Part shown: piece after piece, positions 1-9,366 of the stretch
Layout of the letters: each line of letters begins with the position of its first letter
Numbering within the stretch: position 1 is the stretch's first letter
Source: Akkermansiaceae bacterium
GTDB lineage: Bacteria > Verrucomicrobiota > Verrucomicrobiia > Verrucomicrobiales > Akkermansiaceae
Reading direction: 5' to 3'
Length of the DNA stretch: 64,000 nt
Assembly (NCBI GenBank): GCA_030725745.1
Contig: JANRFH010000015.1
Coordinates: 30,869-94,868 of the forward strand
Notes under the pieces: model-generated
The model's database searches: none
Told to the model about the DNA's origin: nothing
Seen by the model: only the letters and a program-made list of their open reading frames with translations
Program-made: the position numbers and the translations under genes

Positions 1-156
1 GCTGTCTCCATTCCCGGAGCTTTCTGGGGAGACATCCTCGCCTTCGTCACCATCGGTGCCGCTTTCGTCTTCTTCCTTCTCCGCGCCATCGGCCAGCATT
101 CGCTCTACCCGAACCGCGATCCGCGAATCCTCGAATCCGCGAACCTCACCAACTGA
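1..156 (+). CDS. actF: C-terminal end of alternative complex III subunit ActF (partial)
   Basis: Open reading frame 1 runs from the window edge to a TGA at 154-156. The roughly 50 residues seen hold one hydrophobic helix (about residues 8-27) followed by a short hydrophilic tail, GQHSLYPNRDPRILESA. That tail resembles the end of ActF, the polytopic quinol-binding subunit of alternative complex III, which typically finishes with HPLxPxxDPRLxES. ActF sits in the inner membrane and takes part in quinol oxidation. The following genes encode cytochromes and a haem-copper oxidase, the usual company of alternative complex III, so the rest of an act cluster is expected just upstream of the window. 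The call rests on a short tail and on context. Confidence 0.68.
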   Translation, partial: AVSIPGAFWGDILAFVTIGAAFVFFLLRAIGQHSLYPNRDPRILESANLTN

Positions 157-982: not shown

Positions 983-2482
983 ATGTCATCAGCTACACAA
1001 AAATCATCCTCTCAGGACGCCCTTCTGCGCTCCGGCATCGACCGGTCGTTGCGCCATCCCGTCATGTTTTTCATGACCAGTGGTGCTGCATGGCTCGCAG
1101 TTTCGCTTATCCTCGGAGTCATTTCTTCCGCGAAAGCGCATTCCCCTGAGTTCCTTGATGGCTGCGGCTGGTTGACTTACGGTCGTGTTCAGGCGGCTCA
1201 TACCAGTGCATTGATCTACGGCTGGGGCTTCCAAGCAGCTTTCGGCATGATCATCTGGATGATGTCGCGCTTGTCTCGTCAAGAGTGCAGAGCTTCCGGA
1301 ATCATCCTAACTGCAGGACACGTCTGGAACGTTATTATTTCTCTCGGAACTCTTGGCATCCTTGCGGGGTATGGCACTGGAATGCCTTGGATGGAGTTCC
1401 CCTCATTTACTTGGCCTGTCATCACAATCACCTACGCTGTCATCATGGTCTGGTCGCTCGTCCAGTTCAAGGTGCGCCCTGAAGGACACGTTTACATCTC
1501 CCAGTGGTATCTTTTGGCCGCGATGATTTGGTTCCCATGGGTTTTCATCACCACGAATCTTCTGCTTCACGTATTTCCAGGAAATCCCGTCATGGCCGCT
1601 GGTATCAATGCTTGGTATAAATCTAGTCTGATCTTCCTGTTCTTCGTGCCGATTGGCCTTGGAATGGCATTCTACCTTATCCCTAAGGTGACGGGTCGCG
1701 CGGTTCACAGCTACTCGCTCGCCAAGCTTGGTTTCTGGTCGCTAGCGATAATTATGCCATGGGCGGGGATGCAGAAACTTACTGGAGCACCGATTCCATA
1801 TTTCATCCCTTATCTAGGTGCCGCTGCCACAGTTCTATTCTTCATCCCAGCTTTCACAGCTGCCGTCAACCTGCTCCGCACAGCGATGGCTTCTGGAGAT
1901 ATCGTCAACAACAGCCCGGCGCTTCGTTTCACTACGGCAGGCATCGTAGGTCTGATTGTTATGGCAGTGGCCGCGGTTTTCCTGAATCTCCCTGGCTCCA
2001 CCCTGAAGCTCAGTCAATTTTCCCTCTCGGGATATGGATTTGAGATGCTCTCGCTGTATGGCTTCTTTAGCTTTGTAGCCTTCGGTGCTATCTACTTCAT
2101 CGTGCCACGCATCACTGGCCGTGAGTGGCTTTCTCGCCGCCTCATCAAGATGCATTTCTTCATCTCGATCTACGGGATCATGCTCATCGCTGTCGTTGCG
2201 ATCTTCGGAGGACTCCAGCAGGGAGTTGGTCAGGAAATGTTTGACCAGCCATGGGCAACTGCCTCCACCCGCGCCTATCCCTATGCGATCTGCATCACCT
2301 TCTCGTGGTGCACCATCCTCATTTCAAACATCTTCTTCTTCATGCATCTTATGGTGATGTGGCTACGCCTCGGCCGCCGCAGCAACCACCCGACGCTTCT
2401 CGTTTCCGCTCACGGACACAGCCCGCACGGCGAGGAAGGCGATATCGATAACGCTGGCCCCGGCACAGCAGCAGCCCACTAA
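983..2482 (+). CDS. CcoN-like cbb3 oxidase subunit I homologue lacking the oxygen-reducing site
   Basis: The 499 residues form about 12 transmembrane helices with clear CcoN-family stretches: GRVQAAHTSALIYGWG, FYLIPKVTGR and FGAIYFIVPRITGRE. His73 matches the low-spin haem b ligand. Compared from memory with the CcoN consensus, the other metal ligands are gone. The helix that normally carries LHIVNN reads VFITTN, GHNAVGF is replaced by YKSSLIF, the GPHHLH pair is GMQKLT (residues 262-267), and GHVHSG reads GFEMLS (residues 352-357). Copper B and haem b3 therefore cannot bind in the usual way, although Met355 stands where the second haem b histidine should be. A His/Met haem b electron-transfer or scaffold subunit is my inference. 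It is followed by ccoO after 22 bases. Confidence 0.8.
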   Translation: MSSATQKSSSQDALLRSGIDRSLRHPVMFFMTSGAAWLAVSLILGVISSAKAHSPEFLDGCGWLTYGRVQAAHTSALIYGWGFQAAFGMIIWMMSRLSRQECRASGIILTAGHVWNVIISLGTLGILAGYGTGMPWMEFPSFTWPVITITYAVIMVWSLVQFKVRPEGHVYISQWYLLAAMIWFPWVFITTNLLLHVFPGNPVMAAGINAWYKSSLIFLFFVPIGLGMAFYLIPKVTGRAVHSYSLAKLGFWSLAIIMPWAGMQKLTGAPIPYFIPYLGAAATVLFFIPAFTAAVNLLRTAMASGDIVNNSPALRFTTAGIVGLIVMAVAAVFLNLPGSTLKLSQFSLSGYGFEMLSLYGFFSFVAFGAIYFIVPRITGREWLSRRLIKMHFFISIYGIMLIAVVAIFGGLQQGVGQEMFDQPWATASTRAYPYAICITFSWCTILISNIFFFMHLMVMWLRLGRRSNHPTLLVSAHGHSPHGEEGDIDNAGPGTAAAH

Positions 2483-3282: not shown

Positions 3283-4047
3283 ATGTCTTCGCCCGATCCG
3301 CAGCACAGCAGCAAGCCCGACCTCGACGAGTCGATCAACGTCACCAAGGCGCATGGACGCGTCGAACGGGAATCAGCAGCCACCGCCCGCGAGCAACGAA
3401 TCGCCGACAACGGTCACGAGCCACTGGCTTTGTGGGTCATCGTGGCTTGTGGCATTGTTCTCCTCATTGCTGGGGGAGTGATTGGAGATGCTGGGACACT
3501 ATTTTCCTACGGAAATACCTTTAAAGAAGGCTACGTGCGCGGGAAGGCACCGGGATCCTTGGAGGAGGGCCCGGCTCCCAAAGATGCGCTAGCGGCTTTC
3601 AGCGCAAAAGGTCAGAAGGTTTATTCTAAATGCAACGGTTGCCACGGCGCCGACGGTAAAGGTGGCGCGAGCTACCCATCGCTCGCAGGTTCCGCATGGG
3701 TTGTGGGCGATACCCAGAAGTTTGCGATGATCGTGTTGAATGGTCTCCAAGGGCCTGCAAGCAATGGCAAAACCTACGGTGTGATGCCTGCCCAAGGTTC
3801 GGGCATGTCCGCACAGGATCTTGCAGCTCTGATGACCTTCGTCAGGAACGGTTTCGGAAACTCGGTAGGTGACGTGGTGACTGTGGAGATGGCAGAGAAC
3901 GCCCTTGCGATTTCCGCCGCCCGCGAAAAGGTTGGCCAGGCAGTTACTGCAGAAGAGATTAAAGCGGATCACATGGTCATGCTTGAGGGTGAGCCTCTCG
4001 ACCCAACGACAATGGTTGATCCCGCCAAGCTGACACCAGTCGAATAA
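3283..4047 (+). CDS. Membrane-anchored mono-haem cytochrome c (CcoP position)
   Basis: A 254-residue protein read from the ATG at 3283. An upstream in-frame ATG at 3226 lies inside ccoO and is unlikely. Residues about 45-67 form a transmembrane helix after a charged N terminus, and the C-terminal half is a class I cytochrome c with CNGCHG near residue 117 and an axial Met in GVMPAQG near residue 167. The gene sits where ccoP is found in cbb3 operons, but it has one haem site instead of two. Its domain resembles the cytochrome at 186-965. It probably shuttles electrons between the quinol-oxidising complex and the caa3 oxidase encoded next, acting on the periplasmic side. Confidence 0.83.
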   Translation: MSSPDPQHSSKPDLDESINVTKAHGRVERESAATAREQRIADNGHEPLALWVIVACGIVLLIAGGVIGDAGTLFSYGNTFKEGYVRGKAPGSLEEGPAPKDALAAFSAKGQKVYSKCNGCHGADGKGGASYPSLAGSAWVVGDTQKFAMIVLNGLQGPASNGKTYGVMPAQGSGMSAQDLAALMTFVRNGFGNSVGDVVTVEMAENALAISAAREKVGQAVTAEEIKADHMVMLEGEPLDPTTMVDPAKLTPVE

Positions 4048-4089: not shown

Positions 4090-6003
4090 ATGAGCGCCAA
4101 CGCAGCATCTCACGACTCCTCGCATGATCACCACGACGATCATGGAGATCACCACCACAATCCTGGATTCATCCAGAAATACATTTTTTCGACGGATCAC
4201 AAGACCATCGGTATTCAGTATGGTATTACCGCGATGTTGTTCCTCGCATTCGGATTCTACCTGATGATGGTTATGCGCTGGAGCATCGCCTATCCGCATC
4301 AGCCTCTTCCGGAGTGGATGAGTTTCCTTTTCACAGATACTTGGAAAGCCCGTTGGCTTCTGGACGGCAAAGTCACGGGTGAGACCTACAACATGTTCGG
4401 TGCTATGCACGGCACGATTATGGTCTTCCTAGGAATTGTGCCACTAGGATTCGGTGCCTTCGGCAACTACGTCACGCCCCTTCAAATTGGTGCTGTGGAC
4501 ATGGCTTTCCCTAAGTTGAACATGCTCAGTTACTGGATTTATTTTGTGGGTGGAGTCATCATGTGTGCCTCCTTCTTCATGGAGTCCGGTGCAGCAAAAT
4601 CCGGTTGGACGAACTACTCTCCGCTGGCTGGTTTCGCCGATGGTCAGATTGTAAACCAATGGCTCGCGGGTCAGACCCAGTGGTTGATCGGGCTCGTTTG
4701 CCTCATTACGTCATCACTACTCGGCTCGGTGAATTTCATCACCACCATCATCAATCTCCGCGCACGGGGAATGACCTGGATGCGCCTGCCGTTCTTCGTC
4801 TGGGCCATGCTTGTAACCGGCTTCCTCCTTCTGCTCGCTTTCCCACCGCTTGAAGCTGCTGGCATCATGCAGTTGATGGATCGCGTCGCACACTCTTCGT
4901 TCTTCATGCCATCCGGTCTCTACACCAGTGCCGAAGGCCTTGCTGATCTTTCCGGCGGCGGATCGCCTCTCTTGTTCCAGCACCTTTTCTGGTTCCTTGG
5001 TCACCCAGAGGTTTACGTCCTCCTTCTCCCTGCGATTGCCTGCGTTGCGGAAATCATTCCCGTCAACACCCGCAAGCCGCTCTGGGGATACAAGTCGATG
5101 GTCTATTCCGTCCTCATCCTTGGCTTCCTTTCCTTCATCGTGTGGGCACACCACATGTATATGACCGGCATGGGATCCGCCGTCTCCACCTTCTTCCAGA
5201 CCACGACAGTTCTGATCTCTATCCCATCGGTGATTATCATCACCGCGATGCTGATCTCTCTCTGGGGTGGTTCTATCAGATTCACCATGCCGATGCTCTG
5301 GGCATGTGCGTTCATCCCGATGTTCGGCATCGGCGGTCTCACCGGTCTTCCACTCGCTTTCAACCTCGTCGGACTCCACCTGCATGACACTTATTACGTC
5401 ATCGGTCACTTCCACTATGTGGTAGCTCCCGGTATCCTCTTTGGTCTCTTTGCCGGCGTTTACCACTGGTATCCGAAAATGACTGGTCGATACATGAGCA
5501 ACTTCCTCGGCCACCTTCACTTCTGGCCGAGCCTCGTGTGCATGAACATCATCTTCTTCCCGATGCTCATCCAAGGTATGGCTGGCTTCCACCGCCGCTG
5601 GTATAACGGTGGCGACGCCTACCTCGCTAAGGCTGCCGACAGCACGGACGTATTTGGTAACGTGGTTCGCGATTACATTGACCTCAATATCATTATGTCT
5701 ATGGGCGCATGGGCACTCGCACTCGCCCAGATTCCATTCGTGATTAACCTCTTCATCGCCTGGAAAGCTGGCAAGAAGGTCGAAAGCGACAACCCATGGG
5801 ACGCCACCACACTTGAGTGGTCCACTCCGACACCTCCGGGACACGGCAACTTCACCTACGATGTCGCCGTCTATCGTGGCCCTTACGAATATTCTCGCCC
5901 TGATTGCGACAAGGATTACTTCCCACAATGGGAGGCACCCAAGAAGCCCGTGGAAGAACCCGCGGATGCGCCATCCGTCGCAAACACCAACGATCATCAC
6001 TGA
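4090..6003 (+). CDS. ctaD: caa3-type cytochrome c oxidase subunit I
   Basis: A 637-residue haem-copper oxidase subunit I with all metal ligands visible: haem a His in GAMHGTIM, the copper B His and crosslinked Tyr in GHPEVY, the pair in WAHHMYM, and HLHDTYYVIGHFHYV for haems a and a3. The D-channel Asp is in IGAVDMAFPK and Glu in GHPEVY, so it is A-type. The K-channel lysine is missing: the segment that normally reads AVPTGxK reads SIPSVII, putting Ile383 in that position. A His-rich N terminus (HDSSHDHHDDHGDHHH) precedes helix 1. The enzyme reduces oxygen to water and pumps protons. It is the only subunit here with a complete oxygen-reducing site. Confidence 0.95.
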   Translation: MSANAASHDSSHDHHDDHGDHHHNPGFIQKYIFSTDHKTIGIQYGITAMLFLAFGFYLMMVMRWSIAYPHQPLPEWMSFLFTDTWKARWLLDGKVTGETYNMFGAMHGTIMVFLGIVPLGFGAFGNYVTPLQIGAVDMAFPKLNMLSYWIYFVGGVIMCASFFMESGAAKSGWTNYSPLAGFADGQIVNQWLAGQTQWLIGLVCLITSSLLGSVNFITTIINLRARGMTWMRLPFFVWAMLVTGFLLLLAFPPLEAAGIMQLMDRVAHSSFFMPSGLYTSAEGLADLSGGGSPLLFQHLFWFLGHPEVYVLLLPAIACVAEIIPVNTRKPLWGYKSMVYSVLILGFLSFIVWAHHMYMTGMGSAVSTFFQTTTVLISIPSVIIITAMLISLWGGSIRFTMPMLWACAFIPMFGIGGLTGLPLAFNLVGLHLHDTYYVIGHFHYVVAPGILFGLFAGVYHWYPKMTGRYMSNFLGHLHFWPSLVCMNIIFFPMLIQGMAGFHRRWYNGGDAYLAKAADSTDVFGNVVRDYIDLNIIMSMGAWALALAQIPFVINLFIAWKAGKKVESDNPWDATTLEWSTPTPPGHGNFTYDVAVYRGPYEYSRPDCDKDYFPQWEAPKKPVEEPADAPSVANTNDHH

Positions 6004-6051: not shown

Positions 6052-7710
6052 ATGGAAATCCCATACATCGTCACTCCCCGTAAAGACACGGGTCTGATCA
6101 ACTCCAAGATCGCCATCTGGCTCTTCCTCGCTTCTGAGGTCATGCTCTTCGGTGGTTTCTTCTCCGCTTACGTTTATCTGCGCATGGGTGCAGATTATCC
6201 ATGGCCGGAGCGCACGCTTCCCGTCCTTCCTGGTCTCATCAACACCTTCGTGCTTATCGGCTCCTCGGTGACAGTTGTCTTCGCATGGGCTGCCCTCAAG
6301 ATGCGTGAGTGGAGAAAATTCCAGATATACATGGGCATCACCGTCGCTTGCGCCGCTCTGTTCATGGTGCTGAAAGGCGTGGAGTATAACGTCAAGTTTC
6401 ATCACCAAGCTGTTCGTTTGGATGACTACTCGGTCGTTGAAGGGCACCTTGGTTACGAACTCAAAGAGGGTGCCGATGCGCATCATCCAAATGCCGATGA
6501 CTACGTAAAAGACCACAACGGAGATAAGATCGAGGAAAACATGATCCGGGTGAAGGTGGAGAAGCTCACCTTCGCTACCAAGCGCTACTACGCAGAGTGG
6601 GTGGATGAAATGCTTTCCGAGGCAGACCACGCCAATGCGAAGATCACCCTAGAGGCTGATATCGAGGCCACCACCACCGAGGGTGGAAAAATGAAAGTCA
6701 TCGCTAAGAAGGGCGAACCCCTCAGCCTTGATCTCCTCAAAAAGCTCAAGGATGTCCAGCTCGCCGCCCTAAAGCACAATGCTGCTCTTCGTACCCAAAA
6801 TCTTCGTGAACAGTGGGTCGTCGCCAAAGATGCAAACCCTGGCAAACAAGGCTGGGAGATTAGTGATGATGTCAGCATTAACATGGATGACATTACACCG
6901 CTTATGCTTTCCGAAGTGCCAAGCGCTACATTTGTAGTGAATCCTCCGACTGAGTTCCTCTTCAAGCCAAGGGATATCCGAGAAGCTGAAGGCAGTTCAA
7001 GGCTCCGTGACGACACCGTCGTCGTCGGTGAACTCGAGGAAAGCCCAATGGTATTCCACAACGTCGATGCAGTGGACTTCCAATGGCTTGTCATGAAAGC
7101 CGAAGAGAAGGGTATCTCCCCGGAAGCCGCCATTGAGAATTCATGGCTTATGAAAAATAATGCCTTTGTCCGCGAGATATGGGCATGGCACTTGAAGCGC
7201 AACGAGGCTAAACAGAAGGATCTCAATGAGCAATATGGCTTCAAGGAAGATGAAAACGGTAAGCCAACTGAGACTCCTGATCGAGTCCTCACCCACAAAG
7301 AACTCTACCGCATCGGCTGGAAGGAATTCAGGGACTACGGTGAAGAAACCAAAGGTGTAGAAGTTTCCGCTGTTGCAGGTCTGAAAGAAGAATTCATGGG
7401 GCCGAATTACAAAGCCCGCGGTGCAGAAACCTTTCCAGAGCTTTCCCTTCCCCGCGAAGAGATCCGCCATGCGGCGAAGTTTTCTCCGGCTTGGAACACC
7501 TACTACGCGATTTACTTCACCATCACAGGCCTGCACGGCCTTCACGTCATCGGTGGCGCGCTCGTCCTTGCCTACTACCTGTTTTTCGGACGCAAGATGT
7601 ATCTGGAAAATCCGGAGTGGCTCGCAAACCGCGTCGAAGTCGGTGGACTCTTCTGGCACTTTGTCGACCTGATCTGGATCTTCGCGTTCCCGATCCTGTA
7701 TTTGATGTAA
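6052..7710 (+). CDS. ctaE: Cytochrome c oxidase subunit III with a large periplasmic insertion
   Basis: The 552 residues are more than double the usual 200-260. Residues 1-110 give the first three helices (IAIWLFLASEVMLFGGFF, then LINTFVLIGSSVTVVFAW, then the segment before KGVEYN). The last 75 residues give the remaining helices with the family signature ITGLHGLHVIGG and WHFVDLIWIF. Between them lie about 360 hydrophilic, mostly charged residues (about 111-475) with no family I recognise. By the usual topology this loop faces the periplasm. There is no stop or frameshift, and codon use looks like the neighbours, so the insertion appears to be a real added domain. It may dock cytochrome c or neighbouring complexes; that is inference. 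Confidence 0.9.
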   Translation: MEIPYIVTPRKDTGLINSKIAIWLFLASEVMLFGGFFSAYVYLRMGADYPWPERTLPVLPGLINTFVLIGSSVTVVFAWAALKMREWRKFQIYMGITVACAALFMVLKGVEYNVKFHHQAVRLDDYSVVEGHLGYELKEGADAHHPNADDYVKDHNGDKIEENMIRVKVEKLTFATKRYYAEWVDEMLSEADHANAKITLEADIEATTTEGGKMKVIAKKGEPLSLDLLKKLKDVQLAALKHNAALRTQNLREQWVVAKDANPGKQGWEISDDVSINMDDITPLMLSEVPSATFVVNPPTEFLFKPRDIREAEGSSRLRDDTVVVGELEESPMVFHNVDAVDFQWLVMKAEEKGISPEAAIENSWLMKNNAFVREIWAWHLKRNEAKQKDLNEQYGFKEDENGKPTETPDRVLTHKELYRIGWKEFRDYGEETKGVEVSAVAGLKEEFMGPNYKARGAETFPELSLPREEIRHAAKFSPAWNTYYAIYFTITGLHGLHVIGGALVLAYYLFFGRKMYLENPEWLANRVEVGGLFWHFVDLIWIFAFPILYLM

Positions 7711-7744: not shown

Positions 7745-8101
7745 ATGGCCGATTCTATTGAAGCAATTCAAAAATCCAAAAAGACCTACATTCTGGTTTT
7801 TCTAGCACTCCTTGTGGGTACTGTGCTAACCGTTCTCGTTGCCGAGGCTCCCACTTGGGCTACCTGGCTTCAATGGATGGATGTCGGCGAGCATGGCTTT
7901 GACAAGTATGATGCGATTTTGGGGCTTTTGATCGCCACCACCAAAGCGACACTCGTAGCCTATTATTTCATGCACTTGAATCACGAGAAGAAGGCAGTAT
8001 ATTGGATTTTCGGCTCTGGTATCGTCTTCGTTCTCTGGATGGCTTTCCTGCTTGCTCTTGCCTACAGGAGTCCGATCAACGATTACCTCTTCTACAAGTA
8101 A
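7745..8101 (+). CDS. ctaF: Cytochrome c oxidase subunit IV (prokaryotic COX4 family)
   Basis: A 118-residue protein with three predicted helices (about residues 14-33, 57-79 and 85-108). The central one carries KATLVAYYFMHLNHEK, the typical signature of the prokaryotic COX4/caa3 subunit IV family, where the FMHL motif recurs. It follows ctaE by 34 bases and precedes a tiny membrane protein gene by 7 bases. Subunit IV is thought to stabilise the oxidase core in the membrane. The length is normal for the family. Confidence 0.88.
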   Translation: MADSIEAIQKSKKTYILVFLALLVGTVLTVLVAEAPTWATWLQWMDVGEHGFDKYDAILGLLIATTKATLVAYYFMHLNHEKKAVYWIFGSGIVFVLWMAFLLALAYRSPINDYLFYK

Positions 8102-8565: not shown

Positions 8566-9366
8566 ATGACCTTTTCAGAACTCCTCGGACTTCCAAGCAA
8601 CCACTCCGCACACGGTGGCCACGTCGATCACTTGATCATGGTGGTGCATTGGTTCATGCTCGCGCTGTTCGTGGGTTGGACTGTCTTCTTTTTCGTCTGC
8701 CTCTTCAAATTCTGGCACAAGCGTAATCCGAAGGCCTCCTACGATGGGGTTCGCAGCCACCTTTCCAGTCACCTTGAGGTCGGCGTGATCATTATTGAGG
8801 CGGTGCTTCTCCTTGGTTTCGCCTTTCCGCTCTGGCAGACCCGTGTGGATAGCTGGGAGAGAGTTCAGGAAATGGATCCCGTCCGTGTCCGTGTCGTCGG
8901 TTGGCAGTTCGGCTGGACTTATCACTATCCCGGTCTAGATGGGAAATTCGGTCGCACCGATGCGGCGCTGATTTCTGGCACGAACGATCTAGGTATCGAC
9001 TACACCGACCCAAACGCCCTCGATGATTACACCGACTCCACCCTCAGGCTTCCGGTCAATCGTCCGGCAGTGCTCAACATCGGCACTAAGGACGTGATCC
9101 ACAACTACGCGATTGTGCCGATGCGTATCCAGCAGGATGCCATCCCGGGCAAAGAGATCGCCATGTGGTTCACACCGGTGGACAAGATCGAGACTTCCGT
9201 TGTCTGTGCCCAGCTCTGCGGCGAAGGCCATGCGAACATGATCGGAAATATGGAAGTGATCGACGAGAAGGACTACGACTCCCAAGCGACATCCAAGTCT
9301 GAGGCTGCACTTAAAGCGAATTCCCCGAGCACTGCTCCAGAGGAGACGGCTGCGGTGATACGCTAA
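8566..9366 (+). CDS. ctaC: Cytochrome c oxidase subunit II (CuA subunit)
   Basis: A 266-residue protein with two N-terminal helices (about residues 20-42 and 66-87) and a periplasmic cupredoxin domain. The CuA site is complete: His in KDVIHNYAIVPM near residue 183, then CAQLCGEGHANM near residues 213-224, giving both cysteines, the second His and the Met. There is no fused cytochrome c domain, so the donor must be a separate cytochrome, presumably one of those encoded upstream. CuA receives electrons from cytochrome c and passes them to haem a in CtaD. It is the last gene of the operon, placed after ctaD/ctaE instead of first, and a strong terminator follows. Confidence 0.93.
   Translation: MTFSELLGLPSNHSAHGGHVDHLIMVVHWFMLALFVGWTVFFFVCLFKFWHKRNPKASYDGVRSHLSSHLEVGVIIIEAVLLLGFAFPLWQTRVDSWERVQEMDPVRVRVVGWQFGWTYHYPGLDGKFGRTDAALISGTNDLGIDYTDPNALDDYTDSTLRLPVNRPAVLNIGTKDVIHNYAIVPMRIQQDAIPGKEIAMWFTPVDKIETSVVCAQLCGEGHANMIGNMEVIDEKDYDSQATSKSEAALKANSPSTAPEETAAVIR

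Follow-up and report, generated by a model that had tools for sequence, protein, structure and literature searches.

The locus analyzed here raises the question of what a cbb3-type oxidase subunit does when it lies between an alternative complex III (ACIII) and a complete A-type oxidase and has no oxygen-reducing site of its own. The subunit is encoded in the window, by which we mean the whole 64,000-nucleotide stretch of an Akkermansiaceae bacterium contig that was analyzed. A sequence-only reading of this DNA had described it as a CcoN-family protein in which every CuB ligand and the haem b3 histidine are replaced, which may keep one haem b and which could serve as an electron wire or a scaffold.

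Ligand loss in a protein with a predicted CcoN fold

The ligand positions of the window CcoN were read from an alignment to solved CcoN chains, in which residues 30–422 were covered, and also from a MAFFT alignment of 62 CcoN sequences (including that of the window) and one PDB chain. The roles of the CuB, cross-link Tyr, haem b3 and haem b ligands and the Pseudomonas stutzeri numbering applied to the window protein are those we take to be valid for this family. In both alignments, the CuB ligands His207, His257 and His258 are replaced by Ser214, Gln264 and Lys265, and the haem b3 ligand His347 is replaced by Phe353. The MAFFT alignment places Met258 at the position of the cross-link Tyr251. 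In the low-spin haem b pair, His60 is kept as His73 and His349 is replaced by Met355. The window protein has neither the three CuB His and haem b3 His of a functional cbb3 subunit I nor its bis-His low-spin haem b site. The proposed CcoN-family origin and the replacement of every CuB ligand and of the haem b3 His were borne out by the alignment with solved chains, and neither alignment places a His at these positions. Column counts were made in a close set of 121 sequences, comprising the window protein and 120 relatives at 71–92% identity. Ser214, Gln264 and Lys265 are invariant in this set, and Phe353 is found in 120 of the 121 sequences. The ligand loss is not a product of chance or sequencing error, because the replacements are fixed in close relatives. 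His113 in helix III (codon 1319–1321) is also invariant in all 121 sequences; at its position the organism's intact CcoN apparently has Ala, as judged by eye.

The window CcoN matches the COX1 profile PF00115 over the whole chain with 133 bits, which places it in the haem-copper oxidase superfamily. Its score with the TIGR00780 ccoN model is 111 bits (curated cut-off 583), a shortfall that says little by itself because the intact CcoN encoded on contig C2 of the same genome scores only 223. This second CcoN is 35% identical to the window protein, and the 19 kb that were read at its locus contain no neighboring ACIII. The AlphaFold2 model of the window protein (pTM 0.82, mean pLDDT 75.6) contains 12 long helices in a single chain, so no other gene is needed to supply missing helices. 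The best PDB matches to the model in Foldseek were seven CcoN chains, with TM scores of 0.76–0.79 (query length). The stretches of lowest confidence, residues 263–276 and 340–350, adjoin the former metal site. Alignment, predicted fold and family thus support the earlier proposal of a protein derived from a cbb3 oxidase that is catalytically dead. Elsewhere in the window's genome, on contig C3 (L215, 2051–2776), the letters read by eye give a 230-aa frame with CcoN-like first two helices and an AraC-type regulator-like end, which may be a gene remnant, a fused gene or a fault of the assembly.

The gene order around the window CcoN is ActABCDEF, cytochrome c, ccoN, ccoO, cytochrome c, aa3 oxidase (Table 1). 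ActA–ActE lie upstream, outside the window (L003); in this ACIII neighborhood, ActD is a PF11821 protein (207 bits), ActC is an NrfD protein, ActA has five CxxCH motifs and ActE has one. Downstream, the CoxI ligands and the CuA site identify an A-type oxidase. The second cytochrome c carries one CxxCH and is thus not a di-haem CcoP. The sequence-only reading was right about the neighbors, namely ACIII upstream and CcoO and an oxidase with intact CoxI ligands downstream; its label 'caa3' did not hold, and 'aa3' fits better because the window CoxII has no CxxCH and hence no haem c. The window CoxIII has an insertion of ∼350 residues between two conserved stretches. CoxIII frames of the window's family have a median length of 558, those of the sister family 476 and those of the L209-type and Methylacidiphilum-type clusters 225–295. 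In Flavobacterium johnsoniae, the contact with ACIII is made through subunit III (PMC8361435). The first cytochrome c (cytc1) has a match of only 38% in L042 and none in L043, and it was not recognized outside the window's family.

Table 1. Genes and ligand-position codons at the start of the window
Feature	Position	Strand	Basis
ActF 3′ end, last ACIII subunit gene	1..155	+	ORF = L003 17343–19025; 164 bits to solved ActF chains
cytc1, membrane-anchored mono-haem cytochrome c, 259 aa	186..965	+	one CxxCH; PF00034 41 bits
CcoN-family protein without O2-reducing site	983..2482	+	499-aa ORF
His73 codon, sole haem ligand position kept	1199..1201	+	alignments; invariant 121/121
Ser214 codon at CuB His207 position	1622..1624	+	both alignments
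Met258 codon at cross-link Tyr251 position	1754..1756	+	MAFFT alignment
Gln264-Lys265 codons at CuB His257-His258 positions	1772..1777	+	both alignments
Phe353-Glu354-Met355 codons at haem b3 His347 / haem b His349 positions	2039..2047	+	alignments and column counts
CcoO-like mono-haem cytochrome c, 248 aa	2505..3251	+	PF02433 36 bits; alignment to PDB CcoO; CxxCH kept
cytc2, membrane-anchored mono-haem cytochrome c, CcoP-like domain	3283..4047	+	PF13442 36 bits; distal Met kept
CoxI, A-type oxidase, ligands intact	4090..6003	+	PF00115 429 bits; motifs
CoxIII with long insertion, about residues 121–474	6052..7710	+	COX3 match split into two stretches
CoxIV	7745..8101	+	PF03626 47 bits
CoxII, CuA motif CAQLCGEGHANM, no haem c	8566..9366	+	no CxxCH

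Recurrence of the gene order and of the lost site

For a survey of the phylum, 288 genomes were drawn, and the window protein was matched in 91 of them. Loci were read for the short CcoN in 64 genomes, for both copies of the window's genome and for another 16 matches to fused or other CcoN proteins; the match in G078, which spans 100 residues, and the majority of second matches are not included. A copy was called dead when it lacked at least one of the three CuB His residues or the haem b3 His. The sequence-only reading had suggested a search for its gene order in other Verrucomicrobiota, and the order ACIII genes, ccoN, ccoO, cytochrome c gene indeed recurs in the class, as seen in the loci of the 64 genomes and the window. 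The ACIII-linked copies number 65 with that of the window, 44 of them dead and 21 intact, and ActE is encoded within the same locus in all 65. None of the 44 dead copies retains His257 or Tyr251; His347 is missing from 43 of them, His349 from 41, His207 from 36, His258 from 31 and His60 from 25. The 20-kb locus also encodes CoxI in 21 of the 44 dead cases and in one of the 21 intact ones (L056).

A set of named loci from close relatives, which overlaps the first set in that some contigs are identical, includes Luteolibacter, Haloferula rosea, Rubritalea, Roseibacillus, Persicirhabdus and Prosthecobacter records. Among the matches listed, the haem b3 His is absent from 80/80 named loci, ActE/ActF lies upstream in 71/71 loci with more than 2 kb of upstream sequence, and CoxI lies downstream in 73/77 loci with more than 4 kb of downstream sequence. 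Twenty genomes of genus g2, which belongs to the window's family, gave no match to the window CcoN, and this genus seems to have lost the gene. A weak match in G099 (L214, 3899–5278) is a 427-aa CcoN-like protein that keeps several His and lies outside an ACIII cluster.

Each of the 44 genomes with a dead copy encodes a further PF00115 protein that scores 418 bits or more. A-type CoxI proteins score in this range, whereas the highest score of fused CcoNO proteins is about 384 bits. A-type motifs were present in all 16 second oxidases that were examined, 14 from dead-copy genomes and two from intact-copy genomes. Such a PF00115 protein is found in 17 of the 21 genomes with an intact ACIII-linked CcoN, compared with 44/44 above, both being raw counts with related genomes counted separately; in two of the 21, the CcoN is the only match. 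A crude motif screen was failed by 7 of 93 CoxI frames.

Haem b, haem c and the proposed electron route

The sequence-only reading had proposed a His/Met haem b with Met355 as second ligand. In the 121 close sequences, Ile occupies position 355 in 108, Val in seven and Met in six, and 4 of 80 named loci among the matches listed have Met there; the proposal thus lost its support, the residue being mostly Ile. After these column counts, in the close set and in the named loci listed, a His/Met haem b as a general feature was rejected. A wider form of the idea is that the protein retains one haem b, either His/Met or five-coordinate on His73, and that electrons travel via the membrane subunit. In its favor, His73 is invariant in the close set and its position is kept in 19 of the 44 dead copies, and both haem b His are kept in two of the 44, L050 (G013) and L052 (G166), which are distant cousins of the window CcoN. 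However, besides the Ile/Val/Met column at the second-ligand position, the His73 position is Phe in 6 of the 79 named loci with a residue there (among the matches listed) and is lost in 25 of the 44 dead copies, and without the b3 site there is no electron acceptor within the protein. We consider a retained haem b improbable. A His/Met haem b is not a conserved feature because of the counts at position 355 and His73, and since it lacks support, an electron wire through CcoN itself is unlikely; any electron wire would run via the c-type haems next to it. L050 and L052, as ACIII-linked CcoN proteins without CuB and b3 ligands, represent a possible haem-b-only form.

The CxxCH motif is kept in both genes directly downstream of ccoN at all 44 dead loci, and the window CcoO has it as well. 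L065, L066 and L165 were set aside in the comparison of the neighbors, one of which is missing from the stretch read there. The Met of the CcoO SxMPxF/Y motif, which we take to be the distal haem ligand, is replaced by Cys166 in the window CcoO (codon 3000–3002, + strand), so the His/Met pair is absent. This Met is kept in 22 of 22 different intact genes. The position is Cys in all ten members of the window's family and, among the matches listed, in 55/55 named loci of at least 52% identity, a set that overlaps the former. In the sister dead family it is Met in five of six and Ala in one of six, with 21 Met and three Ser in its named loci (among the matches listed), and 22 of the remaining 27 dead copies have Met there (the L082 row, a cytochrome c and not a CcoO, was excluded). 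A His/Cys haem c is predicted in the window CcoO, because Cys166 is the only Cys beyond the two of the haem motif. The cytc2-type cytochrome c keeps its distal Met in 16/16, 27/28 (one gap, L052) and 79/79 copies and in 20/20 different intact genes.

These ligands bear on the possibility that CcoN and CcoO form an assembly or regulatory subunit, for example a redox sensor acting via the Cys-ligated CcoO haem, and not a dock for electron transfer. The Cys is too regular in the window's family and the named loci for drift, but it is restricted to the window's family, and the sister dead family and most other dead lineages keep mostly Met; we consider such an assembly or regulatory role improbable. 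The drift of the CcoO distal ligand in several dead lineages fits a structural CcoO but weakens the case for CcoO as a relay.

ActA has five haem motifs in all 113 sequences found, and CoxII has none in all 78 found. According to PMC8552683, electrons reach the oxidase from ACIII through a sixth haem on ActA in F. johnsoniae and, in Rhodothermus marinus, through an additional haem c carried by the caa3 oxidase. Since ActA has no sixth haem and CoxII no haem c in the clusters analyzed here, a bridging haem c would by analogy be required, for which the cytochromes beside CcoN are the natural candidates. Electrons would pass from ActA/ActE to the c haems, above all those of the His/Met cytochromes, and on to CuA, bypassing CcoN.

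Evolution, proposed role and known systems

In a tree of 83 sequences from which the ligand columns had been removed, the window CcoN, nine close relatives and six further relatives, all dead, group together at full support. The best tree contains three losses of the O2 site (in clades of 1, 20 and 23), and the well-supported (starred) branches force two. One of the three is L072, which is nested in an otherwise intact, well supported clade. A single dead clade was not rejected by the AU test (p 0.0825), and deep placement is unsure because of the long branches L081, L084, L085, L086 and L095. Under an irreversible-loss model, single ligands were lost repeatedly (His258 13 times, His207 10 times and His60 eight times), and the dead copies L044–L046 and L048 still hold a single CuB His. 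L056/L209 represents an intermediate arrangement, in which an intact CcoN adjoins an intact aa3 oxidase. The pattern looks like metal-site decay in a protein retained for another role. The ancestor would have been an active ACIII–cbb3 unit, in which the oxidase site became dispensable once an A-type oxidase was present; the metal sites would then have decayed while docking surfaces were retained.

The dead copies are under purifying selection, with dN/dS values of 0.04–0.24 in 14 close pairs vs. 0.01–0.07 in four pairs of intact copies (dS was saturated in a fifth), so the constraint on them is strong, though looser overall. It is very improbable that the window CcoN merely persists as a leftover of a busy operon: metal sites that decay one at a time and repeatedly are what would be expected after loss of function, but these dN/dS values, the absence of stops from all 44 dead frames read and a mean column identity of 81% in the 121 close sequences speak against it.

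Because the window CcoN is cbb3-derived, catalytically dead and encoded in a gene cluster that runs from ACIII to an oxidase, it is best read as a scaffold-type subunit. Of the earlier suggestion of an electron wire or scaffold subunit from a cbb3 oxidase, the scaffold is what we retain; the wire through CcoN falls with the haem b. We think it rather probable that the protein is a cbb3 subunit without the O2-reducing center that contains no haem and serves as a membrane scaffold, keeping CcoO and the membrane-anchored cytochromes c in place between ACIII and the aa3-type oxidase. We infer a physical complex with ACIII and aa3, the absence of haem in vivo and the electron path. Several points weigh against the scaffold. 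CoxI lies in the same locus in only 21 of the 44 dead loci, and in the others the partner would have to be encoded at a different place in the genome. The ACIII–aa3 pair of F. johnsoniae manages without a CcoN module (PMC8552683). The near invariance of His73 in the window's family has no apparent reason in a protein predicted to be haem-free, and the structural model is weak precisely at the former active site (residues 263–276 and 340–350).

The dead set includes a protein from a methanotroph. P0121 of Methylacidiphilum kamchatkense Kam1 has the same sequence as the L096 protein; it has Glu, Ser and Phe at the positions of His207, His257 and His347, keeps one CuB-position His and lacks both haem b His, and no other protein of the Kam1 genome matches the window protein. 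In the Kam1 paper (PMC6688271), the genes adjoining ACIII are assigned as a high-affinity cbb3 oxidase, on which the oxygen-affinity argument is based. A review (PMC8498564) counts cbb3 among the three oxidases of verrucomicrobial methanotrophs, and the cbb3 label recurs in two later papers (PMC11102522 and PMC10205796). The residues at the ligand positions of the Kam1 protein argue against the assignment of a high-affinity cbb3 oxidase.

More tentatively, and with the odds in our judgment against it as a whole, a haem-free CcoN could be the structural keystone coupling ACIII to aa3 in much of the class, with the His/Cys haem c of CcoO gating or sensing the flow in the window's family and the Methylacidiphilum 'cbb3' being no oxidase. 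The presence of ccoN genes is taken as a sign of high-affinity, microaerobic respiration, and a large share of the ACIII-linked ccoN genes in the class, that of M. kamchatkense among them, cannot encode an oxygen reductase. The series from intact to haem-b-only to haem-free proteins offers natural material on the non-catalytic contribution of a complex IV subunit and bears on how electrons leave ACIII. The scaffold proposal is open to test in cultured Haloferula, Rubritalea, Luteolibacter and Methylacidiphilum.

We found no description of a dead ACIII-linked CcoN in the open-access literature, a search that does not reach older subscription surveys of ACIII gene clusters. The window CcoN resembles the CcoN of cbb3 oxidases (PDB 3mk7 and 6xkw) in its predicted 12-helix fold, its PF00115 sequence and the ccoO gene directly downstream. 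It differs from them in the absence of CuB, the haem b3 ligand, the cross-link Tyr and one of the two haem b ligands, and a mono-haem cytochrome c here replaces the di-haem CcoP of the cbb3 oxidase. With the F. johnsoniae ACIII–aa3 supercomplex (PDB 6btm; PMC8552683, PMC8361435) the gene cluster shares ACIII and an A-type oxidase, here encoded by neighboring genes. No CcoN/CcoO module is known in the F. johnsoniae system; in the gene cluster described here, ActA carries five haem motifs and CoxII lacks any. The ACIII-linked 'cbb3' of verrucomicrobial methanotrophs and Opitutaceae (PMC8498564) has the same gene order, and the Kam1 protein falls in the same set; the review counts this 'cbb3' as a third terminal oxidase, whereas the Methylacidiphilum sequence has no O2 site. 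In the bc1–cbb3 supercomplex with membrane cytochrome cy (PMC7876108), a membrane-anchored cytochrome c likewise lies between complex III and the oxidase, but CcoN is active there and the donor is bc1, not ACIII. What is new here is a pseudo-oxidase subunit within a known class of respiratory clusters.
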